This document shows, piece by piece, positions 2,811 through 63,963 of a DNA stretch of 64,000 nt. Both the position numbers and the translations under genes were made by a program. A model generated the notes under the pieces. That model did no database searches. It was not told where the DNA came from and saw only the letters and a list, made by a program, of their open reading frames with translations. This DNA comes from Nakamurella lactea DSM 19367 (GTDB lineage Bacteria; Actinomycetota; Actinomycetes; Mycobacteriales; Nakamurellaceae): positions 124,001 through 188,000 of the forward strand of contig NZ_AUFT01000007.1 of the NCBI RefSeq assembly GCF_000426645.1, given 5' to 3'. How positions within the stretch are numbered: the first letter of the stretch is position 1; the number at the start of each line of letters is the position of its first letter.

Positions 2811-2828
2811 CAACCAAGCGCTTGCTTG
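2811..2828. promoter_or_regulatory. KstR2-like operator, box 1
   Basis: CAACCAAGCGCTTGCTTG is an 18-bp palindrome. It contains ACCAAGCGCTTGCT, a full match to the published KstR2 motif AnCAAGnnCTTGnT. It lies between the -10 element and the start of the FadD17-like gene at 2886. Binding by the regulator encoded at 63379-63963 is inference. Confidence 0.75.
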
Positions 2829-2885
2829 ATAGCATGTCCGTGAGATAGCTCGCACCGCAGCGACGAGATTTCTGGAGGTCCAGCG

Positions 2886-4598
2886 TTGGCCACATTCGCC
2901 GAGATCGTGCGGTCACGCGCGGCCGACGACCAGACCGGTCTGAAGTTCGAGGACCAGTCGTGGACGTGGTCCGAATTGGTGGCCGAGAGCGCCGTCAGAG
3001 CTGCGGCGGTGCAGCAGTTCGTCCCGACGGATCGGCAACTGCATGTCGGGGTGCTGCTGGAGAACACGCCGGACTTCGTCTTCTGGATCGCCGCCGCTGC
3101 CCTGTCCGGAGCCGTCGTCGTCGGCATCAACCCGACCCGCCGCGGTGACGAACTTGCTCGCGACATCCGGCACACCGACTGCGATCTGATCATCACCGAG
3201 GACCGGCTGGCACACCTGCTCGACGGCATCGACCACGGAGTACCGGCCGACAAGGTGCTGAACGTCGACTCCGCCGGCTACCTGGCACTGCTCGAGCCGC
3301 ACCGCGGCGCAGCGCTGCCGACGACCAGCCCCGACCCTGATGCCATCCTGTTGCTGCTGTTCAGCTCCGGGTCCACCGGTGCACCGAAGGCGGTGATCTG
3401 CTCGCAGGGCCGGCTCGGCATGCTGGCCGAAACGCTCACCGTGCGCACCGAGCTGAGCCGGGAATCGGTGTCGTACATGAGCATGCCGCTGTTCCACGGG
3501 AACTCGGCGATGATGAACCTGGCTCCCGCGACCTTCGTCGGTGCGACCGTCTGCCTCGCCCGCAAGTTCTCCGCCTCCGGATTCGTCCGGGACGTTCACC
3601 GCTTCCGGGCCACCTACGCCAACTACGTGGGCCGGGCACTGTCCTACGTGCTCGCCCAACCACTCGACGAACGGGACGCCGCGAGTTCGCTGTCGCTGGT
3701 CGTCGGCACCGAAGCCTCCGCCGCGGATGCCGAGCGATTTGCCGCGCGGTTCGGCTGCCGGGTCTCCGAGGGATACGGGCTGAGCGAGGGGGTGCTGCGG
3801 ATCAACCGCACCGCCGAGTCGCCCTCCGACGCGCTCGGGCTACCGGTCGGCGGTGCGGACGCACGGGTGCTGAACGAGACCACCGGCCATGAGTGCCCGC
3901 CGGCCGAGTGCGATGAGCAGGGCCGGCTACTCAATGCCCCGGAAGCCATCGGGCAGATCGTCGCGATGGGTATGGCGCATCTGTTCGAGGGCTACTACAA
4001 CAATCCAGGGGCGATGGCGGATCGGATCCGGGGCACCGACTTCTGGACCGGCGACCTGGCCTATCGGGACGCGGCCGGGCAATTCTTCTTCGCCGGCAGG
4101 TCGAACGACTGGCTGCGGGTGGACAGCGAGAACTTCGCCGCCGCCCCGGTGGAACGCATCCTCGAGCGTTGGGACGCGGTCGCGGTGGCCCTGGTCTACG
4201 CCGTCCCCGACCCGCGGACCGGCGACCAGGTGATGTGCACCCTGCAGATGCAACCGGGGCAGCAGTTCGAGCCCGACGCCTTCGTCGAGTTCCTCGACCA
4301 GCAGGCGGATATGGGCACCAAATGGCGGCCCCGCTTCGTCCGGGTCGTTGAGCAGGTGCCGACCACCGGCAACAGTAAGGTCGCCAAGACCGTACTGCGG
4401 CAGACCGCTTGGGCCACCGGCGATCCGCTCTACTGGCGTGCCTCAACTGAACGCGATCTTCGCCGGCTGACGCGCGCCGATCTCGACGCTCTCGAGCAGG
4501 AGTTCGCCGACCACGGCCGCACCGCTTTGCTCCCGACACCGCGCGGTTCAGAAGACGACGGCGCGGCCATTCACCGAGAGGACTCGAATGTTTCTTGA
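2886..4598 (+). CDS. Acyl-CoA synthetase, FadD17-like
   Basis: Likely activates a steroid side-chain carboxylate to the CoA ester. The ATP loop FSSGSTGAPKA is near residue 159, the adenylate motif GYGLSEG near 296, and the family-typical RVDSENFAAAPVE replaces the usual GGEN motif near 411; NSKVAKTVLR near 495 carries the acyl-transfer region. The KFSASGF and NYVG stretches are shared with the second copy at 22706 and, as I remember it, with mycobacterial FadD17. The start is TTG 2886, chosen because GGAGG lies seven bases upstream and no better codon fits. It is the first gene after operator box 1 and overlaps the next gene by 11 bases. Confidence 0.85.
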   Translation: MATFAEIVRSRAADDQTGLKFEDQSWTWSELVAESAVRAAAVQQFVPTDRQLHVGVLLENTPDFVFWIAAAALSGAVVVGINPTRRGDELARDIRHTDCDLIITEDRLAHLLDGIDHGVPADKVLNVDSAGYLALLEPHRGAALPTTSPDPDAILLLLFSSGSTGAPKAVICSQGRLGMLAETLTVRTELSRESVSYMSMPLFHGNSAMMNLAPATFVGATVCLARKFSASGFVRDVHRFRATYANYVGRALSYVLAQPLDERDAASSLSLVVGTEASAADAERFAARFGCRVSEGYGLSEGVLRINRTAESPSDALGLPVGGADARVLNETTGHECPPAECDEQGRLLNAPEAIGQIVAMGMAHLFEGYYNNPGAMADRIRGTDFWTGDLAYRDAAGQFFFAGRSNDWLRVDSENFAAAPVERILERWDAVAVALVYAVPDPRTGDQVMCTLQMQPGQQFEPDAFVEFLDQQADMGTKWRPRFVRVVEQVPTTGNSKVAKTVLRQTAWATGDPLYWRASTERDLRRLTRADLDALEQEFADHGRTALLPTPRGSEDDGAAIHREDSNVS

Positions 4599-5772
4599 GT
4601 ACACCCCGCAGCAGCAGGAGCTGAGCCGGGAGTTGCGCGCGTACTTCGCCGCCCTGCTCACGCCTGACGTCCGCGAGGCACTCGGCGGTACGAACGAGGA
4701 TCGGCCCGCCTTCCGGGAGGTGATCCGGCAGATCGGCAAGGATGGCTGGCTCGGCCTCGGCTGGCCCACCGAATACGGTGGGCAGGGCCGGCCGGCGATC
4801 GACCAGTACATCCTGTTCGACGAGATCAACCGGGCCCAGGCACCGTTCCCGTTCGTCACCATCAACAACATCGGTCCGATGCTGCAGCGATTCGGCACGC
4901 CGGAGCAGAAGAAGAAGTACCTGCCGGGCATGCTGACCGGCGACGTCATCTTCGCCATCGGCTACAGCGAGCCGGAGGCCGGCACGGACCTGGCGTCGTT
5001 GCGGACCCCAGCGGTGCTGGTGGACGACGAATGGGTCATCAACGGCAACAAGGTGTTCACCAGCGCCGCCGCACTGGCGGACTACGTGTGGGTGGCAGCC
5101 AGGACGGATCCCGAGGCGCCGAAGCACAAGGGCATCACCATCCTGATCGTGCCGACCTCGGACCCCGGGTTCAGCTCGACTCCGATCGCCACCTCCGGAA
5201 TCACCCACACCAACGCGTCGTACTACAACGACGTCCGCGTCCCGGCCGCCAGCGTGGTCGGCGAGGTGAACGGTGGCTGGAAGATGATCACCTCCCAGCT
5301 CGGCCACGAACGCGTCGGCCTGGCCGCGATGGGCGGCCGTACCGAACAGCTGTGGAGCGATGTCGCCGACTGGGCCCGCAGCACCGAGGTGGGCGGCCGT
5401 CGGGTGATCGACCAGCCGTGGACCCGCACCGACCTGGCCCGCAGCTACGCCCAGCTGGAGGCGATGCGGCTGCTGAACTGGAAGCTCGCGGTGGTCGGCG
5501 AGAACGAGAACCCTTCGCCGGCAGCGGCTTCGGTCTCCAAGGTCTACGGCACCGAGACGCACGACCGGGTCTGTCGGGCGCTGGTGACCGTCGGTGGGGC
5601 ACTGGCGACGCGCCGCCCCGGGGCGCCCGATGCGGTGTTGGGCGGACAGCTCGAGTCCTACACCCGTGGCTCATACATCAATACCTTCGGCGGTGGCACC
5701 AACGAGGTGCTGCGCGACATGATCGCGGTGTCCGGTCTCGGCATGCCGCGGGCGAAACGGGCGACGAAATGA
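4588..5772 (+). CDS. Acyl-CoA dehydrogenase, large subunit of a ChsE-type heteromer (FadE26/FadE29-like)
   Basis: FAD enzyme predicted to desaturate a steroid side-chain acyl-CoA at C2-C3. The N-terminus YTPQQQELSRELRAYFA, the block LGLGWPTEYGGQG and the flavin-contact stretch YSEPEAGTDLAS (near residue 127) are those of the ChsE2/ChsE4 subunit type. The C-terminal GGGTNEVLRDMIA is the conserved ACAD tail. The 394 residues are full length. In mycobacteria such subunits work as alpha2beta2 with a shorter partner, and the obvious partner is encoded at 6773-7882. ATG 4588 lies inside the end of the ligase gene, and the stop overlaps the next start (ATGA). Confidence 0.87.
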   Translation: MFLEYTPQQQELSRELRAYFAALLTPDVREALGGTNEDRPAFREVIRQIGKDGWLGLGWPTEYGGQGRPAIDQYILFDEINRAQAPFPFVTINNIGPMLQRFGTPEQKKKYLPGMLTGDVIFAIGYSEPEAGTDLASLRTPAVLVDDEWVINGNKVFTSAAALADYVWVAARTDPEAPKHKGITILIVPTSDPGFSSTPIATSGITHTNASYYNDVRVPAASVVGEVNGGWKMITSQLGHERVGLAAMGGRTEQLWSDVADWARSTEVGGRRVIDQPWTRTDLARSYAQLEAMRLLNWKLAVVGENENPSPAAASVSKVYGTETHDRVCRALVTVGGALATRRPGAPDAVLGGQLESYTRGSYINTFGGGTNEVLRDMIAVSGLGMPRAKRATK

Positions 5773-6773
5773 GCGCCACCACGCAGCAGCGGCCGGCGGC
5801 CGGCCCGGACGCCGAGGAGTTCCTGACCCAACTGCGCACCTTCGTCGGCCAGCAGGCCACCCCGGTGCGGTACGCCCAGGATGCGGTGAACCCGGCGATG
5901 ATCCGGCACTTCGTGGAGGCGATGGGTGACGAGAACCCCGTCTACACCGACGAAACCGCCGCCAGGTCGACCGGTCGGTCCGGCATCGTCGCGCCGCCGC
6001 CGATGCTGTCCAGCTGGCTGATGGTGGGTTACAAGGCGCACACGGCCGCGGCCGAGCACGGGGCCCCGGATTCCCCGATGACCCGGTTGCTGAACCTGCT
6101 CGGCGACGCCGGATACGTCGGCGTGGTCGCCACGAATGACGAGCAGGAGTACGTCCGCGAGCTGCGGATCGGAGACCGGCTCAAGATGACAGCGGTGATC
6201 GAGGACGTCTCACCGAGGAAGGTGACCGGCCTGGGTGCCGGACACTTCATCACCACGTTGCGCACGTACACCGACGCGGACGATCAGGTGGTGGCGCGGC
6301 AGCGATTCCGGATCTTGCGTTTCGACCCGACCGTCACCAAGAGCTCGGGGCAGCCGGCGGCCGCCGACCCGGGGCTGCGGCACCGGCCGTTCGTGATGCG
6401 GGACAACCAGTTCTGGTTCGATGCTGCGCGGGAGCGGCGACTGGTGATCCAGACCTGCAGTGACTGCGGCCAACTGCGTCACCCGCCAGGGCCGAGCTGC
6501 CCACAGTGCGGATCCTTCGCCTGGCACGAGACCGCTGCGGCCGGTAGGGGAACCGTGCACAGCTACGTGACCAGCCACCATCCGAAGGCACCGGGCTACG
6601 ACTACCCGCTGACCGTGCTGCTGGTCGACCTCGAGGAAGGCACCAGGCTGGTCGCCGACTACTCGGGCGACCCGGAGACGGTCCGTGTCGGGCTGCCGGT
6701 TGAGGTCGACTGGCTGGACTACGGCGGCGACGTGACCCTTCCCCGATTCCGCAACCGCGAGGAGCAGAGCTGA
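5769..6773 (+). CDS. chsH2: ChsH2-like bifunctional protein: MaoC-type hydratase domain plus DUF35
   Basis: The N-terminal half (about residues 15-190) is a FAS1-like/MaoC hotdog domain. The C-terminal part (about 205-334) is DUF35, with a zinc ribbon C-x2-C-x10-C-x2-C starting near residue 229 and an OB fold after it. This is the domain order of M. tuberculosis ChsH2 (Rv3542c). There the hotdog part pairs with ChsH1 to hydrate the enoyl-CoA, and the DUF35 part binds the Ltp2 aldolase. Partner genes chsH1-like and ltp2-like follow in the same operon. The frame runs open much further upstream, but ATG 5769 overlaps the previous stop as ATGA and matches the domain boundary. Confidence 0.9.
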   Translation: MSATTQQRPAAGPDAEEFLTQLRTFVGQQATPVRYAQDAVNPAMIRHFVEAMGDENPVYTDETAARSTGRSGIVAPPPMLSSWLMVGYKAHTAAAEHGAPDSPMTRLLNLLGDAGYVGVVATNDEQEYVRELRIGDRLKMTAVIEDVSPRKVTGLGAGHFITTLRTYTDADDQVVARQRFRILRFDPTVTKSSGQPAAADPGLRHRPFVMRDNQFWFDAARERRLVIQTCSDCGQLRHPPGPSCPQCGSFAWHETAAAGRGTVHSYVTSHHPKAPGYDYPLTVLLVDLEEGTRLVADYSGDPETVRVGLPVEVDWLDYGGDVTLPRFRNREEQS

Positions 6774-7882
6774 TGGATTTCCACCTGTCGGAGGATCAGA
6801 AGGCGGTCCGCGACCTCGCTGCCGGCGTGTTCGCCCGGCACGCAGACCCGTTGCGGCTGCCCGACATCGAGTCCACCGAGGATCGGTTCGACCGGGTGCT
6901 GTGGCAGCAGCTGGCCGAGGCCGGTGTTTTGGGCCTGGCCATCGACGAGCAGCACGGCGGCGCCGGACTCGGGCTGCAGGAGCTCGCCATGGTGTTGCCC
7001 GAGCAGGGCCGCACCCTCGGGACCGTTCCGTTGTGGGAGACGGTGATCGGCGGCGCGCTGCCGCTGATCCGCTACGGAACCCAGGAGCAGCAGGCACAAT
7101 GGCTGCCGAGGATCGCCGACGGGTCGGCGGTGCTGACCGTTGCCCTGGAACCGATCGGAGCCGCCCGCCCGTGGCGGACGTCCGTCAGCGCCTCCGGAGA
7201 TGACGGCGGTTGGGCACTGACCGGTACCGCCGTCGGCGTCCCGGCCGGGCACCTGGCCGAGGCCATCGTGGTGCCGGCGACCACCGATGCGGGCATCGAG
7301 CTCTTCCTGGTGCGCACCGACCAGTCGCCGGTCGGTCGGCAGCGCTACGAGCGCACCGACCGAGGCATCGCGGTGGATCTGGAACTGGCCGGAGCGGCTG
7401 CCGAGCGACTCGCCGGTGGCCCGCAGGACGACCGGCTCGACTGGCTGCTGCGGCAGTGCTGGATCGCGTTGGCCGGCCTGCAGGTCGGCATCAGCCAGTC
7501 GGCGGTCCGGCAGGCGGCCGAGTACACCTCGATGCGTCACCAGTTCGGAGTTCCGCTGGCCACCTTCCAGGCGGTGGCGCACCAGGCGGCCGATTGCCAC
7601 ATCGACACCGAGGCAATGGAAGTAACGTTCCTGAACGCGGTGTGGCGTGAGGCCACCGGTCGGGACGCCGGAGCAGCGGCACACGTCGCGCAGTGGTGGG
7701 CGTCCGAGGCAGGCGACCGGGTGGCCAGGACCGTGCAGCACCTGCACGGTGGGCTGGGGGCGGACGTCACCTACCCGATCCACCGGTACATGCTCTGGAC
7801 CACGCAGCTGGCGAACACCCTCGGGTCGGCGTCCTGGCACCTTCAGCAGCTGTCCGATCAGATCGCGGAGTCGGCCGCATGA
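6773..7882 (+). CDS. Acyl-CoA dehydrogenase, small ChsE-type subunit (FadE27/FadE28-like)
   Basis: The 369-residue protein starts FHLSEDQKAVRDLAAGVFARH and continues with LGLAIDEQHGGAGLG, features of the short, divergent subunits of steroid acyl-CoA dehydrogenases. The C-terminal HLHGGLGADVTYPIHRY is the family's subunit-contact and substrate motif. The central beta domain is shortened and lacks the strong flavin-contact motif seen in the partner at 4588, as expected for a heteromeric pair that shares FAD sites. The start overlaps the preceding stop. Interrupting the pair with the hydratase gene differs from the adjacent order fadE28-fadE29 in mycobacteria. Confidence 0.85.
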   Translation: MDFHLSEDQKAVRDLAAGVFARHADPLRLPDIESTEDRFDRVLWQQLAEAGVLGLAIDEQHGGAGLGLQELAMVLPEQGRTLGTVPLWETVIGGALPLIRYGTQEQQAQWLPRIADGSAVLTVALEPIGAARPWRTSVSASGDDGGWALTGTAVGVPAGHLAEAIVVPATTDAGIELFLVRTDQSPVGRQRYERTDRGIAVDLELAGAAAERLAGGPQDDRLDWLLRQCWIALAGLQVGISQSAVRQAAEYTSMRHQFGVPLATFQAVAHQAADCHIDTEAMEVTFLNAVWREATGRDAGAAAHVAQWWASEAGDRVARTVQHLHGGLGADVTYPIHRYMLWTTQLANTLGSASWHLQQLSDQIAESAA

Positions 7883-8376
7883 CCGGCACCACCGGACGTA
7901 CCGCAGCGGCCGTATCGGTCGGGGACGCGTTGCCGGAGCTGGCGATCCCGTTGACCCGATCGCTGATCGTCGCCGGCGCGCTGGCCACCAGGGACTACGA
8001 GAACGTGCACCACGATCCGCAGGGCGCGATCGACCGCGGGACTCCGGATGTGTACATGAGCATCAACAACACCAACGGTCTGGTCGGCCGCTTCGTCACC
8101 GATTGGACGGGCCCTGGTGCCTTCATCACCAAACTGTCCACCCGCCTCGGGGTACCGAACTTTCCTGGCGACACCATGACGCTGGCCGGTGAGGTGGTCG
8201 GCAAGCAGGACAACCTGATCGAGATCTCCGTCCGCGGCACGAACGGTGCCGGCTCTCACGTGGTGTCGCAGGTCAGCGTCCGGCTGCCCGACACCGCAGC
8301 GCCCGACACCGCAGCGCCCGACACCACAGCGCCCGATAGTGCAGCGCCCGATAATGCAGCGGAGGCGACCCGATGA
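7879..8376 (+). CDS. chsH1: ChsH1-like MaoC enoyl-CoA hydratase subunit
   Basis: Hotdog-fold hydratase subunit predicted to add water to the side-chain enoyl-CoA together with the ChsH2-like protein. The segment DYENVHHDPQGA, near residue 40, carries the Asp and His of the R-hydratase catalytic motif. The core ends near residue 135, followed by a low-complexity tail of five PDTAA-type repeats (residues 137-161) that is not part of the fold. ATG 7879 overlaps the previous stop (ATGA); the upstream in-frame extension is a shadow of the dehydrogenase gene. At 165 residues it is longer than usual only because of the tail. Confidence 0.87.
   Translation: MTGTTGRTAAAVSVGDALPELAIPLTRSLIVAGALATRDYENVHHDPQGAIDRGTPDVYMSINNTNGLVGRFVTDWTGPGAFITKLSTRLGVPNFPGDTMTLAGEVVGKQDNLIEISVRGTNGAGSHVVSQVSVRLPDTAAPDTAAPDTTAPDSAAPDNAAEATR
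8287..8361 (+). repeat. Five tandem 15-base units encoding a PDTAA tail
   Basis: Five adjacent 15-base units of the form cccgacaccgcagcg begin at 8287, 8302, 8317, 8332 and 8347. Units 1 and 2 are identical; units 3 to 5 have drifted (PDTTA, PDSAA, PDNAA). They lie in frame at the 3' end of the chsH1-like gene, just before the aldolase start. Confidence 0.95.
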
Positions 8377-9554
8377 CCTCCGACTTCCTGTCCGGCAAGG
8401 CGGCGATCGCCGGTATCGGTGCCACCGAGTTCTCCAAGGATTCCGGACGCAGCGAACTGCAACTGGCGATCGAGGCGGTCGGCGCCGCGCTGACCGACGC
8501 CGGTCTGACGCCGGCGGACGTGGACGGCTTGACCACGTTCACCATGGAAACCAATCCGGAGAACATGGTCGCCCGCAGCATGGGCATTCCGGAGCTGAAG
8601 TTCTTCTCCCGGATTCCGTATGGCGGTGGCGGTGCCTGCGCGCCGATCCAGCAGGCAGCGATGGCCGTCGCCACCGGCGTCGCGGATGTGGTGGTCGCCT
8701 ATCGCGCCTTCAACGAACGATCCGGGGTGCGATTCGGGCAGGGGCCGCCGCCGGCCAAGACGCAGGCGACCAGCGACAACGAATACCGGTCATGGGTCAA
8801 CCCGTACGGGCTGCTGACCCCAGCCCAGCAGACCGCGATGTTCGCCCGCAGATACATGCACGCCTATGGCGCGACCAGCGAGGACTACGGCCGGGTCGCC
8901 GTGCTGGCGCGCAAGCACGCTGCCAAGAATCCGCACGCCTGGTTCTACGGCAAACCGCTCACCCTGGCCGAACACCAGGCGTCCAGGTGGATCGCCGAGC
9001 CGCTGCACCTATTCGACTGCTGTCAGGAGACCGACGGCGGTCAGGCGATGGTGATCGTCAGTGCCGAACGGGCCAGGGATCTGCCGCAGCCCGCCGCCGT
9101 GATCACCGCTGCCGCACAGGGTCTGGGCCCCGACCAGTACCAGATGGTGAGCTACTACCGCGACGACCTGACCCGGATCCCCGAGGTCGAATTGTGCGCC
9201 AGGCAGCTGTGGGCGCAGTCCGGTCTCGGCCCGGGCGAGATGGATGCCGCGGTGCTGTACGACCACTTCACCCCGTACGTCCTCAACCAGCTGGAGGAGT
9301 ACGGGTTCTGCGGCCGCGGCGAAGCCAAGGACTTCATCGCGGACGGCAATCTCGAGCTCGACGGACGGCTGCCCACCAACACCCACGGTGGACAGATCGG
9401 CGAGGCCTACCTGCACGGCACCAACGGTGTCGCCGAAGGCGTCCGGTTGATCCGGGGCACCTCAACCAACCAGCCGAAGGGGGTGTCGAACGTCCTGGTG
9501 ACCGCAGGCGTCGGGGTACCGACCAGCGCCCTGATCCTTTCCACCGCACGCTGA
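8373..9554 (+). CDS. ltp2: Ltp2-like steroid side-chain aldolase (thiolase superfamily)
   Basis: Predicted retro-aldolase that releases propionyl-CoA (or a similar unit) from a 17-hydroxy acyl-CoA made by the hydratase. It has the SCP-X thiolase fold but no nucleophilic cysteine motif. Tyr296 (in VLYDHFTPYVL) and Tyr346 (in EAYLHG) are 50 residues apart, as are the active-site tyrosines described for Ltp2. The 393 residues are full length. Ltp2 needs the DUF35 domain of ChsH2, which this operon supplies. ATG 8373 overlaps the chsH1 stop. A paralogue of almost the same length is at 29739. Confidence 0.9.
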   Translation: MTSDFLSGKAAIAGIGATEFSKDSGRSELQLAIEAVGAALTDAGLTPADVDGLTTFTMETNPENMVARSMGIPELKFFSRIPYGGGGACAPIQQAAMAVATGVADVVVAYRAFNERSGVRFGQGPPPAKTQATSDNEYRSWVNPYGLLTPAQQTAMFARRYMHAYGATSEDYGRVAVLARKHAAKNPHAWFYGKPLTLAEHQASRWIAEPLHLFDCCQETDGGQAMVIVSAERARDLPQPAAVITAAAQGLGPDQYQMVSYYRDDLTRIPEVELCARQLWAQSGLGPGEMDAAVLYDHFTPYVLNQLEEYGFCGRGEAKDFIADGNLELDGRLPTNTHGGQIGEAYLHGTNGVAEGVRLIRGTSTNQPKGVSNVLVTAGVGVPTSALILSTAR

Positions 9555-9698: not shown

Positions 9699-11360
9699 AT
9701 GACGATGAGTAGAAGAAGGGCCGGGCGCTACTGGCTGGCGTTCGTCGCGGCCGGCGCGCTGGCGCTCACCGCCTGCAGCGGCGGATCCAGCAACGACCCG
9801 ACCAGCGACCAGGCCGCGACCAGTTCGGCGGCCGCCGGGGCCGGCAGCCAGTCGTCAGCCGCGACCGGCAGCGCGAGCGGCTCGGCCGCCGCACCGGCTG
9901 CCGACGTCGACACCTCGGCGGTGCTGAAGTTCACCTCGGCCGGGCCGACCAGAAATCTCGATCCGGCCAAGCAGACCAGTTACGGCGGCTGGGGATACCT
10001 TGTCCTGGTCTACGACCGGCTGACCATGCTGGACGACAAGGACCAGGTGGTCCCGGGCCTGGCCACCGAATGGGCATTCGCCAAGGACGGCTCCTCGCTC
10101 GAGCTCACCCTCCGCAAGGACGTGAAGTTCCACGACGGCACCCCCTTCAACGCGGCCGCGGTCAAGGCGAACATCGAGCGGGGCCAGACCCTCGAGGACT
10201 CATCGCTGAAGGCGTCGTTGCAGAGCATCGCCAAGGTAGAGGTGGTCGACGACTACACGGTGAAGCTGGATCTGGCGAAGGGCAGCGGTGTATCGCTGCC
10301 GTCGGTGTTCGCCACCGACGCCGGAATGATGGTCAGCCCCAAGGCCATCGAGTCCGGCGCGAAGTTGGAGGACGGCAAGGTCGATGCCGGCTCCGGGCCG
10401 TACGTGGTGAGCGAGTACGTGGCGAACGAGAAGGTGACGCTCAAGCGCGCCGACTCGTACTGGGATCCGAATGTCGGCACCCTCGCCGGGATGGAACTGA
10501 CCCGCGTCCCCGATGCCAGCACCCGGCTCAAGGGTGTGCAGACCGGGGAAACCGATCTGTCGTTGGTCAGCTCCGCGAACGAAGTGGCGCAGGCCAAGCA
10601 GCTCGCCGACGCCGGCCAGATCAAGCAGAACCTGGTCACCTTCCGCAATGTGCTCGGCATCTACCTGCGTACCAACCAGGGTGACCTGGCCAAGCCGGAG
10701 ATCCGGCAGGCCATCGCCTATGCAGTCGACCCGAAAGCGGTCAATGCGCTGTTCTCCGGTACCTGCGCGCCGACCCGGCAGTTGGTTCCGGCGAACGACT
10801 GGTCGGCGATCCCGGACTACACCTACCCGTACGAGTTCGACGAGGCCAAGGCCAAGGAGTTGGTGCAGAAGGCAGGCGGCGGCAAGGTGACCGTGACCTT
10901 CGCGGCCGGGACGAACGCCGAGCAGCCGGCGAACGTGGTGCAGGCGGCGCTGACCAAGGTCGGCATCCAGGCCACCCTCAACCCGGTGCCGAACTCGGAG
11001 AACGAGCCGCGGTTCATCGCCGGGGACTTCGAGCTGATGGTCGCGACCTCCTGGAGCCCGAAGATCGATCCGGCACAGACGGTCGACACGTACCTGCTCG
11101 ACACCTACAAGCTGGCCAGCGATCCGTCGCTGATCAAGGCGGACGCGGCCAAGGCCGCGGACCCGACGTTGTCGCAGGAGCAGCGGGCACCCCTGTACCA
11201 GAACATCTGGAAGACCGCACTGGAGCAGAACTGGTACATCCCACTCTGCAACCAGACCAGCGCCACGATCTACAACGACAAGGTGCTCAACGCCGAAGCC
11301 ATTCCGTGGGCCAACATCGGCATCTGGGACCTGCGCAACATTGCGGTGAAGAAGGGCTGA
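9699..11360 (+). CDS. ABC transporter substrate-binding lipoprotein, family 5 (Dpp/Opp type)
   Basis: Extracytoplasmic receptor of an oligopeptide/dipeptide-type importer, although family 5 proteins bind many non-peptide ligands. The signal peptide has basic residues, a hydrophobic stretch and the lipobox LTAC with Cys near residue 26. A Ser/Ala/Gly linker follows, so it should be lipid-anchored. The body contains the family stretch LRKDVKFHDGTPFNA near residue 140. ATG 9699 has a GAAGG-type ribosome site just upstream; ATG 9705 is an alternative. The gene is followed by a strong hairpin and then the permease genes. The ligand is unknown; in this catabolic setting it may be an organic acid. 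Confidence 0.88.
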   Translation: MTMSRRRAGRYWLAFVAAGALALTACSGGSSNDPTSDQAATSSAAAGAGSQSSAATGSASGSAAAPAADVDTSAVLKFTSAGPTRNLDPAKQTSYGGWGYLVLVYDRLTMLDDKDQVVPGLATEWAFAKDGSSLELTLRKDVKFHDGTPFNAAAVKANIERGQTLEDSSLKASLQSIAKVEVVDDYTVKLDLAKGSGVSLPSVFATDAGMMVSPKAIESGAKLEDGKVDAGSGPYVVSEYVANEKVTLKRADSYWDPNVGTLAGMELTRVPDASTRLKGVQTGETDLSLVSSANEVAQAKQLADAGQIKQNLVTFRNVLGIYLRTNQGDLAKPEIRQAIAYAVDPKAVNALFSGTCAPTRQLVPANDWSAIPDYTYPYEFDEAKAKELVQKAGGGKVTVTFAAGTNAEQPANVVQAALTKVGIQATLNPVPNSENEPRFIAGDFELMVATSWSPKIDPAQTVDTYLLDTYKLASDPSLIKADAAKAADPTLSQEQRAPLYQNIWKTALEQNWYIPLCNQTSATIYNDKVLNAEAIPWANIGIWDLRNIAVKKG

Positions 11361-11373
11361 CCATCCGTTGACG

Positions 11374-11420
11374 GCGGTGCCGGTGATCAATCGCTGAGTG
11401 CGGCAGATCACCGGCACCGC
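11374..11420 (+). terminator. Strong hairpin between binding-protein and permease genes
   Basis: GCGGTGCCGGTGATC (11374-11388) and GATCACCGGCACCGC (11406-11420) pair perfectly over 15 bp around a 17-base loop, 14 bases after the binding-protein stop. No T-run follows. Such stems after binding-protein genes often stabilise the upstream message or partly terminate it, giving more receptor than permease. Confidence 0.65.
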
Positions 11421-11466
11421 TACCGATCCACCGCAATCGATCTACCCAGGGCGAAAGGACACCACC

Positions 11467-53643: not shown

Positions 53644-53663
53644 GGGACTGTTCGCTCCCGCAC

Positions 53664-54818: not shown

Positions 54819-54898
54819 CGGCGCTTCCTCCTTGAAGACGATGATGCCCGCAATCCGCCGCGAACGGGTGGCCGGGCCCACGGACATCTGCCGCTAGT

Positions 54899-56644: not shown

Positions 56645-56709
56645 CCAGGGCCGGCCCCGCGGCAGCCGCTCGGCGCCGCCTTTCCATCACTCAATCTCAA
56701 GGAGCACCG

Positions 56710-57930
56710 ATGTCAGAAGCCGTGATCGTCGCCGCCGCACGATCGCCGATCGGGCGTGCGTTCAAAGGATCGCTGACGTCGCTGCGGGCCGACGACATGG
56801 CGGTCGCCATGGTCCGGGCCGCGCTGGCCCAGGTGCCGGAGTTGGATCCGCACACCGTCGACGATCTGATGCTCGGCTGCGCCCAGCCGGCCGGTGAGCA
56901 GGGCTACGGCCTGGCCCGGGTGGTCGCGGTGGCCGCCGGGCTGGACGACGTGCCGGGCACCACCGTGCAGCGCTACTGCGCGTCCAGCCTGCAGACCACC
57001 AGAATGGCGTTGCACGCGATCAAGGCCGGCGAGGCCCAGGTGCTGATCTCGGCCGGCGCCGAGGCGGTGTCCCGATTCGCCCAGGGCAAGTCCGACGGCA
57101 TGCCGGACACCCGCAACCCGTTGTTCGCCGAGGCGGCCGAGCGCACCGCGGCCCGTGCCCTCGGTGGCTCTCCGGACTGGACCGACCCGCGCGAATCCGG
57201 CGCCCTGCCTGATGTCTACATCGCGATGGGCGAGACGGCCGAGAACGTGGCGGAGTTCCGCGGGATCAGCCGGCAGGCGCAGGACGAGTTCGGCGCACTG
57301 TCCCAGCAGCGGGCCCAGCGGGCGATCGAGGCCGGGTTCTTCGACCTCGACATCACCCCGCTGACGCTGGCCGACGGCACGGTGATCGGCAAGGACGACG
57401 GCCCCCGCAAGGGCGTCACCGTCGAAGGTCTGGCCGGGTTGAAGCCGGCCTTCCGACCGGACGGCACGGTGACGGCCGGGAACTGCTGCGGGTTGAACGA
57501 CGGCGCCGCCGCGCTGGTCGTGATGTCCGACAGCAGGGCCACCGAACTGGGGCTGACGCCGCTGGCACGGGTGGTGTCCACCGGCGTGTCCGCGCTGTCG
57601 CCGGAGATCATGGGTCTCGGCCCGGTGGAGGCCTCCCGACGCGCCCTGGCCAATGCCGGGATGTCCATCGGTGACCTGGATCTGATCGAGATCAACGAGG
57701 CGTTCGCCGCTCAGGTGCTGCCCACCATCGACGACCTGAAGATCGATCCGGACCGGGTCAACGTGCACGGCGGAGCGATCGCCCTCGGGCACCCGTTCGG
57801 CCAGACCGGGGCGCGGATGACGACCACCCTGATCAACGGTCTGCGGTTCACCGACGGCCAGTTCGGGCTGGAGACCATGTGCACGGCCGGCGGCCAGGGG
57901 ATGGCCATGATCATCGAGCGGCTGTCCTGA
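56710..57930 (+). CDS. Acetyl-CoA C-acyltransferase (thiolase)
   Basis: 406 residues. The nucleophile is in TVQRYCASSLQTTRMA near residue 90; EINEAFAAQVLP near 324 and GGAIALGHPFGQTGAR near 353 carry the catalytic His-containing loops, and MCTAGGQGMAMIIERL the C-terminal Cys. An ordinary degradative thiolase resembling several mycobacterial FadA proteins, less specific in pattern than the FadA5- and FadA6-like enzymes. ATG 56710 has AAGGAG six bases upstream. Co-transcribed with the FadD3-like gene (65-base gap). Confidence 0.87.
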   Translation: MSEAVIVAAARSPIGRAFKGSLTSLRADDMAVAMVRAALAQVPELDPHTVDDLMLGCAQPAGEQGYGLARVVAVAAGLDDVPGTTVQRYCASSLQTTRMALHAIKAGEAQVLISAGAEAVSRFAQGKSDGMPDTRNPLFAEAAERTAARALGGSPDWTDPRESGALPDVYIAMGETAENVAEFRGISRQAQDEFGALSQQRAQRAIEAGFFDLDITPLTLADGTVIGKDDGPRKGVTVEGLAGLKPAFRPDGTVTAGNCCGLNDGAAALVVMSDSRATELGLTPLARVVSTGVSALSPEIMGLGPVEASRRALANAGMSIGDLDLIEINEAFAAQVLPTIDDLKIDPDRVNVHGGAIALGHPFGQTGARMTTTLINGLRFTDGQFGLETMCTAGGQGMAMIIERLS

Positions 57931-57966
57931 GATGAGATCGGGGCGGTCGGCCCGGGAGGAGAACGG

Positions 57967-58596
57967 ATGACGCGGCTTCCACCACCACAGGTGTACGAGA
58001 TCGACGGCGTGGTACCGGTTGTCGACCCGTCCAGTTTCGTTCATCCGACCGCGGTGCTGATCGGCGATGTGCTGATCGGACCCGATTGCTACATCGGTCC
58101 GGGTGCGACGTTGCGCGGCGACATGGGCCGGATCCGGATCGAGCAGGGTGCCAATGTGCAGGACAATTGCGTGCTGCACTGCTTTCCCGGCCGGGAGACG
58201 GTGGTCGAGACCGAGGGGCACATCGGTCACCTGGCGATGCTGCACGGCTGCCGGATCGGGGCCGGGGTGCTGGTCGGTATCGGCGCTGTGGTGATGGACG
58301 GGGTGGTGATCGGTGAGCGATCGTTCGTCGGTGCGCACAGTTTCGTGCCGGCCGACCTGCAGATCGGCCCCGGTCGGCTGGTGGTCGGTAGTCCGGCGAA
58401 GGACAAGCGCGCCCTGACCGAGGCAGAGATGACCTGGAAGGCCAACGGCACCAGGACGTATCAGGAACTGGCCAGGCGCTCGCTGGCCACCATGCGGCCG
58501 GTCACGGCGCTCACCGAGCTACCGGACGGGCCGCGGGAACTCGGCGTCACCGTCGCCACTGCCGTGCCACTGCGTGAGTTCCGCGCCCGCACCTGA
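57967..58596 (+). CDS. Left-handed beta-helix hexapeptide protein, PaaY/CaiE-like
   Basis: 209 residues. Repeated hexapeptide turns start near residue 20 (HPTAVLIGDVLIGPDCYIGPGA). GANVQDNCVLHCFPGRETVVE, HIGHLAMLHGC and FVGAHSFVPA supply the three histidines that bind metal in gamma-carbonic-anhydrase-like proteins. The C-terminal helix has AEMTWKANGTRTYQELA, as in PaaY. PaaY is a thioesterase in phenylacetate breakdown and CaiE supports carnitine-CoA enzymes, so a CoA-salvage or housekeeping role in the catabolic operon is likely. ATG 57967 follows GGGAGGAG. Confidence 0.82.
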   Translation: MTRLPPPQVYEIDGVVPVVDPSSFVHPTAVLIGDVLIGPDCYIGPGATLRGDMGRIRIEQGANVQDNCVLHCFPGRETVVETEGHIGHLAMLHGCRIGAGVLVGIGAVVMDGVVIGERSFVGAHSFVPADLQIGPGRLVVGSPAKDKRALTEAEMTWKANGTRTYQELARRSLATMRPVTALTELPDGPRELGVTVATAVPLREFRART

Positions 58597-59742: not shown

Positions 59743-59760
59743 GTAGCAAGCGCTTGGTTG
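59743..59760. promoter_or_regulatory. KstR2-like operator, box 7
   Basis: GTAGCAAGCGCTTGGTTG, two end mismatches to the 18-bp palindrome but a full match to the 14-bp core. A good -10 element, TATAGT (59766-59771), lies just after it on the plus strand, so the box would occupy the -35 region of the second LIV operon. It may also control the divergent kinase-fold gene. Confidence 0.72.
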
Positions 59761-59814: not shown

Positions 59815-60675
59815 ATGACACCGATCTGGTCCGGACTGGCGATCGGCGCGGTCTACGCGCTGGTTGCCATCGGCTACAACATTGTCTACGTCGCTTACAC
59901 GACGTTCAACTTCGCCCACGCCCAGTTGATGATGTTCGGCGTCTTCGTCACCTACTGGGCGACCGTGGTCGCCGACCTGCCGATCTGGCTGACCTTCCTG
60001 GCGTGCGGCGCGGCGGTCGGGTTGATCGCCCTGATCGAGGAGTTCATCGCGATCCGCCCGGTAAAGGGGGCGCACGCCCATTTGGTGACCACCCTCGGTG
60101 CGGCCACCCTGTTGGACGGCATCACCAGGTTGATCTGGGGCGATCAGGTGCTCAAGGTGCCGCCGGTGATCGGATCGTCGAGCACCATCACGCTGCTGGG
60201 CGGTCGGATCAGCATCGTCGAACTGGTGCTGATCATCGCCATCATTGTCATCACCGGCCTCATCACGCTCTACAGTCGCCGCTCGCTGACCGGCCTTGCC
60301 CTGCTGGCGATGGCGGAGGATCGAGACGCAGCGCTGCTGCGCGGGATCAACGTCAAACGATTGGCTTTGGGCGCCTTCGTGTTCGCCGGGGTGCTCGCCG
60401 GGATCACCGGCCCGCTGGTCGGGCCGAAGACCTTCGCGGTCGCCACCCTGGGGTCGGCGCTGGCTCTCAAGGGATTCGTCGCGGTGGCCATCGGTGGGTT
60501 CGGCAGCATGCCGGGGGCGCTGATCGGTGGCTTCGTCGTCGGCCTGGTCGAATCGCTGTCCGGCCGCTGGCTGGGTAGCGACTTCCCGACCATCATGGTG
60601 TTCGTCGTCCTGCTGCTGATCCTGCTGCTGAAACCGACCGGCCTGTTCGGCTCGACCCGGGAACGGGTGGTCTAG
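59815..60675 (+). CDS. livH: LIV-type ABC permease LivH (second system)
   Basis: 286 residues, about eight hydrophobic helices. NIVYVAYTTFNFAHAQLMMFG near the N-terminus (two adjoining pieces) and the coupling loop SLTGLALLAMAEDRDAALLRGI near residue 160 are LivH features; GFVAVAIGGFGSMPGALIGG follows near 220. ATG 59815 has AGGAGG seven bases upstream. No binding-protein gene precedes it, unlike the first LIV operon. Directly abuts the permease-ATPase fusion gene. Confidence 0.88.
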   Translation: MTPIWSGLAIGAVYALVAIGYNIVYVAYTTFNFAHAQLMMFGVFVTYWATVVADLPIWLTFLACGAAVGLIALIEEFIAIRPVKGAHAHLVTTLGAATLLDGITRLIWGDQVLKVPPVIGSSSTITLLGGRISIVELVLIIAIIVITGLITLYSRRSLTGLALLAMAEDRDAALLRGINVKRLALGAFVFAGVLAGITGPLVGPKTFAVATLGSALALKGFVAVAIGGFGSMPGALIGGFVVGLVESLSGRWLGSDFPTIMVFVVLLLILLLKPTGLFGSTRERVV

Positions 60676-62508
60676 ATGACGACAATCGTGCAAGGCCTGC
60701 GCCGGATCCCGTCCTGGGTGCTGCCGCTGGCCCTTGGCATCTTGCTGATCGCCGCTCCGTGGCTGGGCATCAGCGCCGATACCCGCCGACTGCTGGTGCT
60801 CAGTTGCATCCTGGCGCTGGTCACCAGCGGACTGAGCCTGAGCTTCGGATACGCCGGCGAACTCGCGCTGGGGCAGACCGCCATGTACGCCACCGGCGCC
60901 TACCTCACCGGATATCTGGCAATGCACTGGGTCAACGATCTGCTGCTGCTGGTGGTGGTCTCGGCCGTGGCCGCGCTGGTCGTCGGGATGATCTCGGGCA
61001 TTCCGGGTCTACGCCTCGGCGGCTGGTCGCTGGCGATGACGTCCTTCTTCCTGGTCCTGCTGGTTCCACAGATCATCGACCTGCTGGAGAAGTACACCGG
61101 CGGGGCCGTCGGCCTGGTGGGCATCCCGCAGCCGAAATTGTTCGGCCAACCGCTGAGCACCGTGACCTTCTATGTGGTGGTCGCGGTGATCACCGTCGTC
61201 TGGTTCACCGTGATGCGCAATCTGGTGACCTCCCGGCACGGTATCGCGTTCCAGGTGCTGCGGCAGAGCCCTGTCCTGGCCTCGTCTCTGGGCATCTCGG
61301 TGTTCCGGCTCAAGCTCACCGCCTACGCGTTGGGGGCGATCCCGGCCGGTATCGCCGGAGCGCTGTTCGCCTACGTCGACAAGTACCTCTCGCCGTCCAC
61401 GTTCGGTTTCACCATGGCCGTCACCGTGCTCGCCGCCGCGATTCTCGGCGGGGCGAAGAGCGTCTATGGCGCGCTGATCGGTGCGCTGATCATGCAGTAC
61501 GGGCCGCTGCGGTCCACCGACTTCGCGCAGTACGCCCAGGTGATCTACGGCGTCTTCCTGATCGTCGCCGGGACATTGGTGGCCAACGGGTTGGCCGGCC
61601 TGGCGAACCGGGCGATCAAGCTGTTGAAGGCACGCTGGGATCCCCAGCAGCCGGCATCGGCCGGCGGCGATCCGGACCAGTCGGCCGGCGAATCCAGTGG
61701 GCTGACGAAGCGTCCGGTACTGCCGCAGTTGCCGGGCGATCGGCTGCAGATCGAGGGCCTGGCCAAACGTTTCGGCGGTCTGCAGGCGCTCGGCGGGGTG
61801 AGCTTGACCGCCGAGCCCGGTCAGATCACCGCGCTGATCGGTCCCAACGGATCGGGCAAGACCACACTGCTGAACATGGTCTGTGGGTACTACCGGACCG
61901 ATGACGGGACGATCCACATCGGGGATACCGACATCACCGGCGCGAAGACCCACCAGGTGGCCAGGGCCGGCGTGGCACGCACCTTCCAGACGCCGCTGTT
62001 CCCGGAGGACATCTCGGTCCACGAGGCGGTGGCCGCGGGGATGTACACGCCGCGGTACGTCGGGATGCTGTCGTCGATCCTGCGGCTGCCGAGGTACTGG
62101 CGCACAGTCAGGGCCGACCGGGCCGAAACCACCGCCGTGCTGCGCCTGGTCGGCGTCGACCACCTCGCCGATGCCGAAGCGGCATCACTGCCGCTGGGCA
62201 CCCGGCGGCTGCTGGAAGTGGCGCGGGCACTGGTCTGCCGCCCGAAGGTGTTGCTGCTGGACGAGGTCGCCTCCGGACTCGACGAGGACGAGATCGAGCG
62301 GTTGGCCGAGCTGATCAGGGCGATCCGGGCGGCCGGGACCACGGTCGTTTTGGTGGAGCACAACTTCAAGCTGGTCCTCGAACTCGCCGACACCATCCGG
62401 GTACTCGCCCAGGGCGAGCTGATTGCCTCCGGGACGCCGGCCGAGATCGAGAACCATCCGCGGGTGTTGTCCGACTATCTGGGTGTACGGCAGGAAGGGA
62501 TGCAGTGA
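60676..62508 (+). CDS. LivM-LivG fusion: permease joined to ATPase
   Basis: 610 residues. Residues 1-320 form a LivM permease with about nine hydrophobic segments (LSLSFGYAGELALGQTAMYA near 55; coupling loop RHGIAFQVLRQSPVLASSLGI near 184). A Pro/Ser/Gly-rich linker spans 320-352. Residues 355-610 are a LivG ATPase with Walker A GPNGSGKTT near 390, Walker B VLLLDEVASGLDEDE near 523 and a degenerate signature LPLGTRRLLEVARAL. The first LIV system in this window has the two as separate proteins. Fusions of this kind are known in LIV-type systems. Confidence 0.9.
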   Translation: MTTIVQGLRRIPSWVLPLALGILLIAAPWLGISADTRRLLVLSCILALVTSGLSLSFGYAGELALGQTAMYATGAYLTGYLAMHWVNDLLLLVVVSAVAALVVGMISGIPGLRLGGWSLAMTSFFLVLLVPQIIDLLEKYTGGAVGLVGIPQPKLFGQPLSTVTFYVVVAVITVVWFTVMRNLVTSRHGIAFQVLRQSPVLASSLGISVFRLKLTAYALGAIPAGIAGALFAYVDKYLSPSTFGFTMAVTVLAAAILGGAKSVYGALIGALIMQYGPLRSTDFAQYAQVIYGVFLIVAGTLVANGLAGLANRAIKLLKARWDPQQPASAGGDPDQSAGESSGLTKRPVLPQLPGDRLQIEGLAKRFGGLQALGGVSLTAEPGQITALIGPNGSGKTTLLNMVCGYYRTDDGTIHIGDTDITGAKTHQVARAGVARTFQTPLFPEDISVHEAVAAGMYTPRYVGMLSSILRLPRYWRTVRADRAETTAVLRLVGVDHLADAEAASLPLGTRRLLEVARALVCRPKVLLLDEVASGLDEDEIERLAELIRAIRAAGTTVVLVEHNFKLVLELADTIRVLAQGELIASGTPAEIENHPRVLSDYLGVRQEGMQ

Positions 62509-63245
62509 TGAGCACTGCTGAGGTGCTGCTGCAGGTGCGCAACCTGGCCACCGGATACGGCGACATCAGAGCCGTCTGGGACGTCTCACTGACCGTCCGG
62601 GCCGGTGAGATGACGGTGCTGCTCGGCCGCAACGGTGCGGGCAAAACCACTACCCTGCGGGCGATCTCGGGACTCAACAAGGCGGACTCCGGGAGCATCG
62701 AGTTCGCCGGTGAGGACGTCACCGGGATGCCGCCGCATCGCCGGGTGACCGCGGGGATGGCGTTGGTGCAGGAGGGCAAGCGGATCTTCCGGCGTCGCAC
62801 CATCGAGGAGAACCTGCTGCTGGGCGGTTACACCCGCGGGCTCGGCAAACGGGCGCTGGAGCGCGAGGTTTCGGACGTCTACCAGCTGTTCCCCGCGTTG
62901 GCCGATCGCAAGCACGTGACCTCGGGGCAACTGTCCGGTGGTCAGCAGCAGATGCTGGCCATCGGCCAGGCGCTGATGTCGAAGCCGAAGTTGCTGATGC
63001 TCGACGAGCCGTCCGGTGGTCTGGCGCCGGCCATCGTTGCCGAGGTGATGGCGACGGTTGCCGGACTGAAGGAGACCGGGATCGGCATTCTGCTGGTGGA
63101 GCAGGCGGTTGCCGCCTCGCTGGCGGTGGCCGATCGGGTGACGGTGCTCGACGTCGGCCGGGTGCTGTTGGACAAGCCGGCCGCCGAGATCACCGATACC
63201 GAGGTGTTGACCGAGGCTTACCTTGGCCGCGGCTCGACGAGCTGA
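62508..63245 (+). CDS. livF: LIV-type ABC ATPase LivF (second system)
   Basis: 245 residues. Walker A GRNGAGKTT is near residue 40, VQEGKRIFRRRTIEENLLLGG near 86 the LivF Q-loop region, QLSGGQQQMLAIGQALM near 141 the signature and LLMLDEPSGGLAP the Walker B. ATG 62508 overlaps the fusion-gene stop by one base and has AGGAAGGG eight bases upstream; GTG 62505 is an alternative. Last gene of the box 7 operon; 133 bases of unassigned sequence separate it from the convergent regulator gene. Confidence 0.9.
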   Translation: MSTAEVLLQVRNLATGYGDIRAVWDVSLTVRAGEMTVLLGRNGAGKTTTLRAISGLNKADSGSIEFAGEDVTGMPPHRRVTAGMALVQEGKRIFRRRTIEENLLLGGYTRGLGKRALEREVSDVYQLFPALADRKHVTSGQLSGGQQQMLAIGQALMSKPKLLMLDEPSGGLAPAIVAEVMATVAGLKETGIGILLVEQAVAASLAVADRVTVLDVGRVLLDKPAAEITDTEVLTEAYLGRGSTS

Positions 63246-63378
63246 GTCGTTGGCGCGGTGAGTATCCGGAGGGCGGCGCGTCGCCACCGCACCGAGACGT
63301 CGCCTATGGCGCGGAAACGACCGGTTGGCGCGCCGCAACTGCTCCGAGACGTCGCGAACGGTCCCGGGCACGCCGCAA

Positions 63379-63963
63379 TCAGCGCGGGACGATGCCTTCC
63401 AGGAAGGTGGAGACGAAGTCGTCGGCGAACCGCTTCATCGAATACTGGTGGGTGGGCTTGAACCAGCGCACCGACAGCCACAAGGAATCGCGGATCAGTC
63501 GGTAGAGCACCCGCGGCGGGATGTCGTCCCGGAACGCGCCCGAGGTGACCCCGGCCTCGATCACCTTGATCCAGGTCTTGGAGATGGTGTTCGCCGCGGT
63601 CTTGATGTGGTCGTACCCCTGCAACGAGGTCAGGTACTTGCCGCTGTTCTGATAGATCTCGGTGGCATGCGGATGCGCCTCGATGACGCTGAGCGACGCC
63701 CGCACCAGTTCGGTGAGCTGGGTACGCGGGTCCGAATGCGCCGTCACCACGGCGGTGTACCGGTCGGTGAGATCGGCCAGATAGGACGACACGATCGCGT
63801 CCACCATCTCGTCCTTGGACTTGAAATGGTGGTAGAGGCTGCCCGACAGGATGCCGACGGCGTCGGCGATCTCGCGCACCGTGGTAGCGACGATTCCCTT
63901 GGCGGCGAACAGATCCGCCGCGTGCTCAAGGATGACGGTGCGGCGGTCGTGCGGTTCGGCCAT
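63379..63963 (-). CDS. kstR2: TetR-family regulator, KstR2-like
   Basis: 194 residues. The N-terminal helix-turn-helix (about residues 8-55) reads TTVREIADAVGILSGSLYHHF, followed by KSKDEMVDAIVSSYL. The end reads YRLIRDSLWLSVRWFKP, all very close in pattern to KstR2 (Rv3557c), whose ligand is HIP-CoA. KstR2 recognises AnCAAGnnCTTGnT, present seven times in this window at operon fronts. The start ATG 63963 has GAGAGG six bases upstream. Its own promoter lies at or beyond the window end, so autoregulation cannot be judged. Predicted repressor released by a CoA thioester of the late pathway. Confidence 0.85.
   Translation of the reverse strand: MAEPHDRRTVILEHAADLFAAKGIVATTVREIADAVGILSGSLYHHFKSKDEMVDAIVSSYLADLTDRYTAVVTAHSDPRTQLTELVRASLSVIEAHPHATEIYQNSGKYLTSLQGYDHIKTAANTISKTWIKVIEAGVTSGAFRDDIPPRVLYRLIRDSLWLSVRWFKPTHQYSMKRFADDFVSTFLEGIVPR

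Follow-up and report, generated by a model that had tools for sequence, protein, structure and literature searches.

We analysed a 64,000-nucleotide stretch of the 5.82-Mb genome of Nakamurella lactea DSM 19367 (C5:124001–188000; "the window" denotes this whole stretch) and found that it belongs to a 106-kb island carrying 14 palindromic operators of the KstR2 type (boxes), a gene for a KstR2-type TetR repressor (g90), and counterparts of the genes for degradation of the steroid C and D rings. We consider it moderately probable that the repressor controls how hydrindane steroid remnants are imported, stripped of their side chains and degraded in the C and D rings, and that the island finishes steroids partly degraded by others. 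The features read from the sequence are the boxes, the kinship of the regulator, the gene set, the recurrence of the boxes across genera, and the failure to find ring A/B markers. An earlier note made from the window had interpreted it as a KstR2-like regulon, and the comparisons described here support that interpretation.

The earlier note had placed an 18-bp palindrome at seven positions, and a box was confirmed at each of them:

2811–2828, no strand: KstR2-type box upstream of g34 (FadD/ChsE-ChsH/Ltp2 module and oligopeptide-type ATP-binding cassette (ABC) importer); the orthologous operon is boxed in Micromonospora chalcea and Dactylosporangium roseum.
29243–29260, no strand: KstR2-type box in the divergent gap g55/g56; the relatives match in part only (box before the g59 ortholog).
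37693–37710, no strand: KstR2-type box upstream of minus-strand g65–g62 (short-chain dehydrogenase/reductase (SDR) and SnoaL-like genes); the g65 ortholog is boxed in Actinokineospora.
38985–39002, no strand: KstR2-type box in the divergent gap g66 (major facilitator superfamily, MFS)/g67 (Rv3548c-like SDR); the g67 ortholog is boxed in four relatives.
46122–46139, no strand: KstR2-type box upstream of leucine/isoleucine/valine (LIV)-type importer 1; Nakamurella silvestris has a box before the g75 ortholog at C204:131455.
54899–54916, no strand: KstR2-type box in the divergent gap between the FadA6-like and FadD3-like genes; the g83 ortholog is boxed in four relatives.
59743–59760, no strand: KstR2-type box in the divergent gap g86/LIV-type importer 2; N. 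silvestris has a g86/g87 box and Actinokineospora has separate g86 and g87 boxes.

The 18-mer CAAnCAAGCGCTTGnTTG was exact at two of the seven sites (2811 and 46122), whereas four sites differed from it at one position and one (59743) at two. The 10-bp core CAAGCGCTTG was exact in all seven boxes, and the 14-bp motif AnCAAGnnCTTGnT fitted all seven. When up to three mismatches to the 18-mer were allowed, seven matches were observed in the window against a shuffle mean of 0.09, and none of 100 shuffles reached seven. As had been claimed, all seven boxes are intergenic and precede operons (intergenic DNA is 4.3% of the window), and four of them (29243, 38985, 54899, and 59743) lie in divergent gaps. 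The equation of the core with the published KstR2 site also stood: in sequence type, the boxes agree with KstR2 sites positive in electrophoretic mobility shift assays, such as TATCAACCAAGCGCTTGCTCGGCC at Rv3557c/Rv3558, and the published motif is AnCAAGnnCTTGnT (PMC3068626).

A scan of the whole genome, which the earlier note had proposed with a weight matrix, was run with the exact core instead, by which weaker boxes are missed. The core occurred 15 times: 14 copies lie at C5:114285–219821, that is, within 106 kb or 1.8% of the genome and not before many unrelated genes, and one lies at C20:11830. The reversed pattern, used as a control, was found 24 times in the genome. The operators are thus 14 and not the seven of the earlier note, and the regulon described as spanning most of the window is larger than that description. 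Three boxes are to the left of the window (C5:114285, 122060, and 122220) and four to the right; two of the latter are just beyond the window end (window-equivalent core positions 64021 and 64188), upstream of the TetR gene. All 14 are intergenic, where intergenic DNA makes up 4.7% of C5:113–221 kb, and they occupy 12 gaps, two of which contain two boxes each. The predicted box-linked operons comprise 56 genes when gaps of up to 60 bp are bridged or 80 genes at up to 150 bp, the latter figure taking in doubtful members such as the phosphoesterase-looking g20. Both the gene calls and the intergenic fractions were obtained with a script of our own rather than with a published gene finder. The sole core outside the island, C20:11830, fits AnCAAGnnCTTGnT and is in the gap upstream of a gene that by inspection resembles a sugar-type ABC binding protein.

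The KstR2-like TetR gene that the earlier note had reported at 63379 is present and is a near full-length match to solved KstR2 structures:

63379–63963, minus strand: g90, KstR2-type TetR repressor (PDB KstR2 match; single copy; two boxes upstream outside the window; tree).

The E values of g90 were 4.3e-41 against the solved KstR2 4w97 (over residues 5–192) and 6.9e-45 against 2ibd, a "possible transcriptional regulator". The segment GILSGSLYHHF in the DNA-binding part is identical to that of 4w97. R158 and W162 of g90 align with R162 and W166 of 4w97, which we take to be the residues contacting coenzyme A (CoA)-linked 3aα-H-4α(3′-propanoate)-7aβ-methylhexahydro-1,5-indanedione (HIP). Within the compared stretches described below, g90 is the reciprocal best hit (42%) of the mycobacterium-like protein. 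Its start is preceded by two boxes, at distances of 58 and 225 bp, and AnCAAGnnCTTGnT likewise precedes the regulator's own gene in N. silvestris and Actinokineospora. A second KstR2-type gene was not found in the genome, the next TetR matches having E values of 6e-11 or worse. Judged by its near full-length kinship and its boxed own gene, g90 is classed here as a putative KstR2 in the wide sense and not as one of the narrow Mycobacteriaceae type.

Among 16 other genomes of the same genus, a close relative of g90 occurs in one, which we take to be that of N. silvestris (76% identity). The boxes of N. silvestris precede orthologs of g21, g65/g67 (one shared), g75 (LIV-type importer 1), g82/g83, g86/g87 (LIV-type importer 2), g90/g91 (two), and g108/g109. 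Those of Actinokineospora sp. NBRC 105648 are at g30, g65, g66/g67, g82/g83, g86, g87, g90/g91 (two), and g108/g109, and those of M. chalcea and D. roseum are at g30/g31, before g34–g46 (oligopeptide importer included), and at g59, g66/g67, g82/g83 or g81/g83, g86, and g108/g109. Across these four relatives, 11 of the 12 box loci are found again at least once in front of the orthologous operon, the 29243 locus in part. Most of the extra targets, namely the two LIV-type importers, the oligopeptide-type importer, the MFS gene, and an aldolase module, keep boxes in at least one of the four.

The strict pattern AVCAAGCGCTTGBT was searched in 15 genomes. The nine regulator-bearing genomes contained 6, 10, 7, 4, 7, 7, 14, 2, and 2 strict boxes, with 0–1 in the reversed controls, and 9 of the 14 in D. 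roseum are in one 53-kb stretch. No strict box was found in the other six: four same-genus genomes without a close regulator relative, and G044 and G063, whose regulator relatives show 36% and 71% identity, respectively. Chance clustering of the palindrome is ruled out by the shuffles, the genome core counts, these strict-box counts, and the intergenic placement. It might still be supposed that only the classical genes are regulated and that the boxes ahead of the importers and the other non-classical operons are weak sites or remnants without function, as could be argued from Nocardioides simplex VKM Ac-2033D, in which phytosterol induced only 10 of the 29 operons that have predicted KstR2 sites (PMC7807495). 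We regard this as very improbable, given that the importer boxes have exact cores, lie 58–121 bp upstream of the first gene, and are found again ahead of orthologous importers (54–82% protein identity) in other genera.

For 33 shared island genes, the median identity to those of our strain is 75.5% (N. silvestris) and 72.9% (Actinokineospora), against 86.7% and 80.1% for rpoB, and the regulator of Actinokineospora (79%) is closer to g90 than that of N. silvestris. This rough test is suggestive of horizontal transfer of the island, which we do not claim. In D. roseum, two regulator copies stand side by side at the island end, and near 4.43 Mb there is another regulator, accompanied by an ipdA ortholog and boxes. 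Outside the four relatives, Trebonia kvetii has a LIV-type importer (g87–g89 54–60% identical) that follows a KstR2-type box and lies close to two regulator genes.

In regards to gene content, every one of the 14 genes in the published KstR2-regulon table (PMC5380842) has a reciprocal best hit in the island, and all of these hits are in predicted box-linked operons. The comparison was made with 140 kb of a genome that is mycobacterium-like by gene content (G022) and whose genes were named by gene order; reciprocity holds between the two stretches. Seven table genes are in the window: g67 (Rv3548c-like), g68 (FadE30), g69 (FadE33), g81 (Rv3549c-like), g82 (FadA6), g83 (FadD3), and g90 (KstR2). 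The other seven are to the right of it at C5:207250–217917, behind the box at 207198: g109 (IpdA), g110 (IpdB), g111 (IpdC), g113 (IpdF), g116 (EchA20), g119 (FadE31), and g120 (FadE32). The FadD3-, FadE30-, and FadA6-like genes that the earlier note had seen behind boxes are therefore borne out by reciprocal best hits in the mycobacterium-like KstR2 cluster. The g109 protein matches 6con and 6co6, both presumably IpdA, with E values of 1e-100 or better. The box-linked genes of the window are as follows:

2886–9554, plus strand: g34–g39, acyl-CoA synthetase, FadE, ChsH2-like hydratase with an oligonucleotide/oligosaccharide-binding (OB) domain, FadE, ChsH1-like protein, and Ltp2-like aldolase (Pfam, PDB).
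9699–15299, plus strand: g40–g44, oligopeptide-type ABC importer with SBP_bac_5 protein, two permeases, and two ATPases (g40 by Pfam, g41–g44 by inspection; orthologs behind the boxed g34 operon in M. chalcea and D. roseum).
28171–30923, mixed strands: second aldolase module, g55 (minus) hydratase, g56 (plus) OB-fold protein, and g57 (plus) Ltp2-like protein (Pfam).
37715–38935, minus strand: g66, MFS transporter (Pfam).
39095–42283, plus strand: g67–g69, Rv3548c-like SDR, FadE30-like, and FadE33-like proteins (reciprocal best hits of 61%, 61%, and 39%).
46206–50965, plus strand: g75–g79, LIV-type ABC importer 1 with binding protein, two permeases, and two ATPases (g75 by PDB, g76–g79 by inspection; N. 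silvestris orthologs 69–82% identical).
52843–54887, minus strand: g81, Rv3549c-like SDR, and g82, FadA6-like thiolase (reciprocal best hits of 46% and 65%).
54974–58596, plus strand: g83, FadD3-like acyl-CoA synthetase, g84, thiolase, and g85, hexapeptide-repeat-like protein (g83 reciprocal best hit of 44%; g84 and g85 by inspection).
59815–63245, plus strand: g87–g89, LIV-type ABC importer 2, permeases and ATPase (inspection).

Of the 59 genes called in the window, 23 were run against Pfam, and many other annotations are readings of the translated sequence; outside the window, on contig C5, 10 proteins were run against NCBIfam and 27 against Pfam. Pfam, PDB, and inspection agree with the two aldolase modules, the MFS protein, and the two LIV-type importers that the boxes had been said to mark. 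The g35–g39 genes have reciprocal best hits in the G022 stretch, although g38 has no Pfam match. The ChsH2-like protein matches solved ChsH2, and g39 together with the C-terminal part of g36 matches the Ltp2-ChsH2 aldolase 6ok1 (6ok1_A, E 7e-181). The g75 protein and g91 (Peripla_BP_6), the likely binding protein of importer 2 just outside the window, match the periplasmic LIV-binding family, and the permeases and ATPases were recognised by eye; on this basis, both systems are classed as putative LIV-type importers. By inspection, the binding proteins g31, g40, g75, and g91 have lipoprotein-like starts. A second SBP_bac_5 protein is encoded at C5:122351.

HsaC, KstD, and KshA, which together mark a 9,10-seco steroid degrader, were used as queries, and the set was not found in this genome. 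There was no HsaC match, KstD gave short weak matches (best E 1.4e-5, all 36 candidates scored), and the best KshA match had 29% identity (E 4.9e-30), which is not a close KshA. The same queries matched strongly in many other genomes. Because no HsaC, no full-length KstD, and no close KshA were found, the island probably serves the uptake and finishing of partly degraded steroids, not the attack on intact ones. Of 48 genomes, 11 gave no HsaC match and 5 a weak one (E above 1e-40), 13 had no KstD match at 1e-20, and 19 had no KshA match at 1e-40; these genomes were chosen for holding a KstR2 relative and are not a random sample, so the counts are not survey frequencies, and at most 29 KstD candidates were scored in each of the other genomes, so that a KstD could be missed there. 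By the thresholds of 1e-40 (HsaC), 1e-20 (KstD), and 1e-40 (KshA), 12 of the 48 lack all three markers. An ipdC match with an E value of 1e-120 or better was found in 46, of which 10 are without the markers: ours, N. silvestris, Actinokineospora, Dactylosporangium aurantiacum, D. vinaceum, D. roseum, Enemella dayhoffiae, Nonomuraea fuscirosea, Thermoactinospora rubra, and Streptosporangium canum. G044 and G063 make up the remainder of the 12, and neither has a strong match to ipdC.

Alternatively, the organism may degrade intact steroids, rings A and B being opened by enzymes unrecognisable from KstD, KshA, and HsaC, and KstR2 governing most of a whole-steroid pathway. Candidate ring openers would be the flavin-containing monooxygenase (FMO)-like g95, luciferase-like oxidoreductases, and a distant Rieske-type relative on C7. 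The presence of side-chain genes with FadA5-, FadE34-, and KstR-like genes agrees with such a pathway, as do the FMO-like and thiamine pyrophosphate (TPP)-enzyme genes between box-linked operons and the 29%-identical KshA relative; however, the FMO operon has no preceding box, queries that perform strongly elsewhere find no HsaC and only short weak KstD matches here, and nine other genomes with strong ipdC matches are also without all three markers. We judge this alternative to be unlikely, with an appreciable chance nonetheless.

A further alternative accepts KstR2-like regulation and supposes that the ligand and the substrates are not steroid-derived, the HIP genes having been recruited for another bicyclic or terpenoid acid. 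Its arguments are that several box-linked genes are outside the known HIP pathway and that the regulator is in a separate clade without the KstR2-3 signature [ED][DE][RM]N[RK][QE]QRK, to which the aligned residues of g90 do not conform. This signature is reported only from Mycobacteriaceae in the accessible text of PMC13176608. In a tree of 86 sequences, for which the program warns of long branches, 33 (g90, Nakamurella, Actinokineospora, Micromonospora, and Dactylosporangium) were split at 100/100 from 53 that include G022, Rhodococcus rhodnii, Saccharopolyspora, and nearly all Streptosporangiaceae. Set against the 14 of 14 table genes with reciprocal best hits and the very strong matches of the IpdA-, ChsH2-, and Ltp2-like proteins to solved relatives, a non-steroid substrate appears quite unlikely.

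The reading of the island as one for finishing steroid remnants nevertheless has several observations weighing against it. Since g90 does not group with the mycobacterial and rhodococcal KstR2 proteins, its ligand may differ from theirs. The g122 box showed no recurrence in the stretches of the relatives examined. G063, a Saccharothrix, carries its regulator of 71% identity together with a near-match box, yet contains neither a strict box nor a strong match to ipdC. The pattern CAAGnnCTTG occurs within 400 bp upstream of the regulator start at 55 of 80 loci and not at 25, these being the best 80 of at least 567 regulator relatives. Other box-linked genes encode, by Pfam, a DegT aminotransferase, a carboxyltransferase, and a MmgE/PrpD protein, for which we know of no place in the published HIP scheme. 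The FadA5-, FadE34-, and KstR-like genes inside the island suggest an ancestry in whole-steroid degradation. M. chalcea shares much of the island and yet has a KstD relative at 45% identity. As to the missing markers, the genome is 98.3% complete in 27 contigs, and the three queries may leave room for unrecognised ring A/B enzymes.

From the features above, we infer how binding, repression, ligand, transporter substrates, and scavenging may fit together in such a remnant-finishing island. The g90 repressor would bind the 14 near-identical operators and keep about 56–80 genes, its own included, switched off from 12 intergenic control regions. A little hydrindane acid would enter the cell, and the FadD3-like ligase of the island would make the CoA thioester. 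HIP-CoA is the published KstR2 effector (PMC5380842); by analogy, the inducer of g90 itself would most likely be HIP-CoA or a related CoA thioester derived from a hydrindane (C/D-ring) steroid remnant. The thioester would release the repressor, so that importers and pathway rise together: the importers, the MFS protein, side-chain removal by the ChsE/ChsH/Ltp2 modules, and the HIP pathway (FadE30–33, FadA6, IpdF, IpdC, EchA20, and IpdAB). The substrates would be partly degraded steroids, perhaps released by other microbes. More broadly, there may be a guild of actinobacteria living on two-ring remnants, with KstR2-type controlled import and C/D-ring degradation, ABC importers dedicated to hydrindane acids, and ring A/B catabolism lost or never had; we hold this to be possible, slightly short of probable.

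Further features of the island and its surroundings were noted. The DegT/DnrJ/EryC1-type aminotransferase (Pfam), encoded at 30990–32261 within a box-linked catabolic operon, has no role in HIP degradation to our knowledge. Luciferase-like, SnoaL, and SDR genes are also present (Pfam; more by inspection). The SnoaL-like g62 and g21 were considered as bile-acid dehydratases and are not claimed as such: g62 has no convincing PDB match, and g21 matches BaiE with an E value of only 0.076. A third aldolase-like module without its own box is at C5:192275–206267 (window-equivalent 68275–82267) and includes an FMO-like protein, a TPP enzyme, a hydrolase, a FadE pair, two family III CoA-transferases, a hydratase pair, an Ltp-like thiolase, an OB-fold protein, and an amidase. 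A KstR-like TetR gene (26571–27170, plus strand; PDB KstR, E 2e-28) is preceded by FadD- and FadE34-like genes. Between the divergently oriented g49 (FadA5-like) and g50 (SDR) lies a 21-bp palindrome, GTTCT-(11)-AGAAC (21761–21781), which is the sole match to this pattern in 164 kb and is possibly the operator of the KstR-like regulator. A second layer of classical KstR boxes, whose consensus we take to be TnnAACnnGTTnnA, was dismissed, the one match in 164 kb being intragenic. A tRNA-Val called by ARAGORN at 52740–52826 overlaps the end of the acyl-CoA synthetase gene g80 and a long GC-rich inverted repeat between convergent genes, and is probably false; the repeat is probably a terminator-like hairpin. 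Rfam gave no match in the window at gathering scores. An alpha-L-fucosidase gene (C5:109130–111490) lies just left of the island.

According to the accessible text of a 2016 survey, steroid uptake systems in taxa without Mce4 were not identified (PMC4810484), and a 2021 review describes the bile-acid uptake systems of degraders as largely unknown (PMC8399759). The island supplies box-linked importer candidates that can be tested through a single regulator. If the scavenger reading is true, organisms that complete the degradation of steroids are overlooked by genome surveys keyed on ring A/B genes; if the guild exists, steroid mineralisation is a divided, cross-fed process. A literature search of titles and abstract beginnings, with few subscription papers, returned none on a KstR2-controlled importer or a genome with the C/D-ring pathway only, and nothing of use on Nakamurella and steroids.

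Among known systems, the KstR2 regulon of mycobacteria and Rhodococcus jostii shares with the island the operator AnCAAGnnCTTGnT, the TetR gene beside its own box, and the 14 table genes (PMC3068626, PMC5380842). The mycobacterial regulon as described in 2010 by Kendall has three boxes and 15 genes (PMC3068626), and side-chain genes in mycobacteria belong to KstR (PMC8399759), whereas the present island has 14 boxes, about 56–80 genes, importers and side-chain aldolase modules, a regulator of a separate clade, and no ring A/B markers found. In the island, the counterpart of the Ltp2-ChsH2 aldolase is encoded by a box-linked operon that also encodes an oligopeptide-type importer. Cholate metabolites are imported in R. 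jostii RHA1 by CamABCD and by CamM, the latter acting on metabolites with a perhydroindane structure (PMC8399759, PMC6498646), from which it follows that perhydroindane-type compounds occur outside cells. These are likewise ABC and MFS transporters; the likeness is one of type, KstR2 control not being stated for Cam in the accessible text of these papers. N. simplex, a non-mycolate actinobacterium, resembles our strain in having many more KstR2-type sites than mycobacteria. Unlike our strain, it has KstD and Hsa genes under other control, and one compact island is not seen and an importer not mentioned in the accessible description of its sites (PMC7807495). A larger predicted KstR2 regulon is thus already in print for N. 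simplex, and the present island is a variant of that kind.

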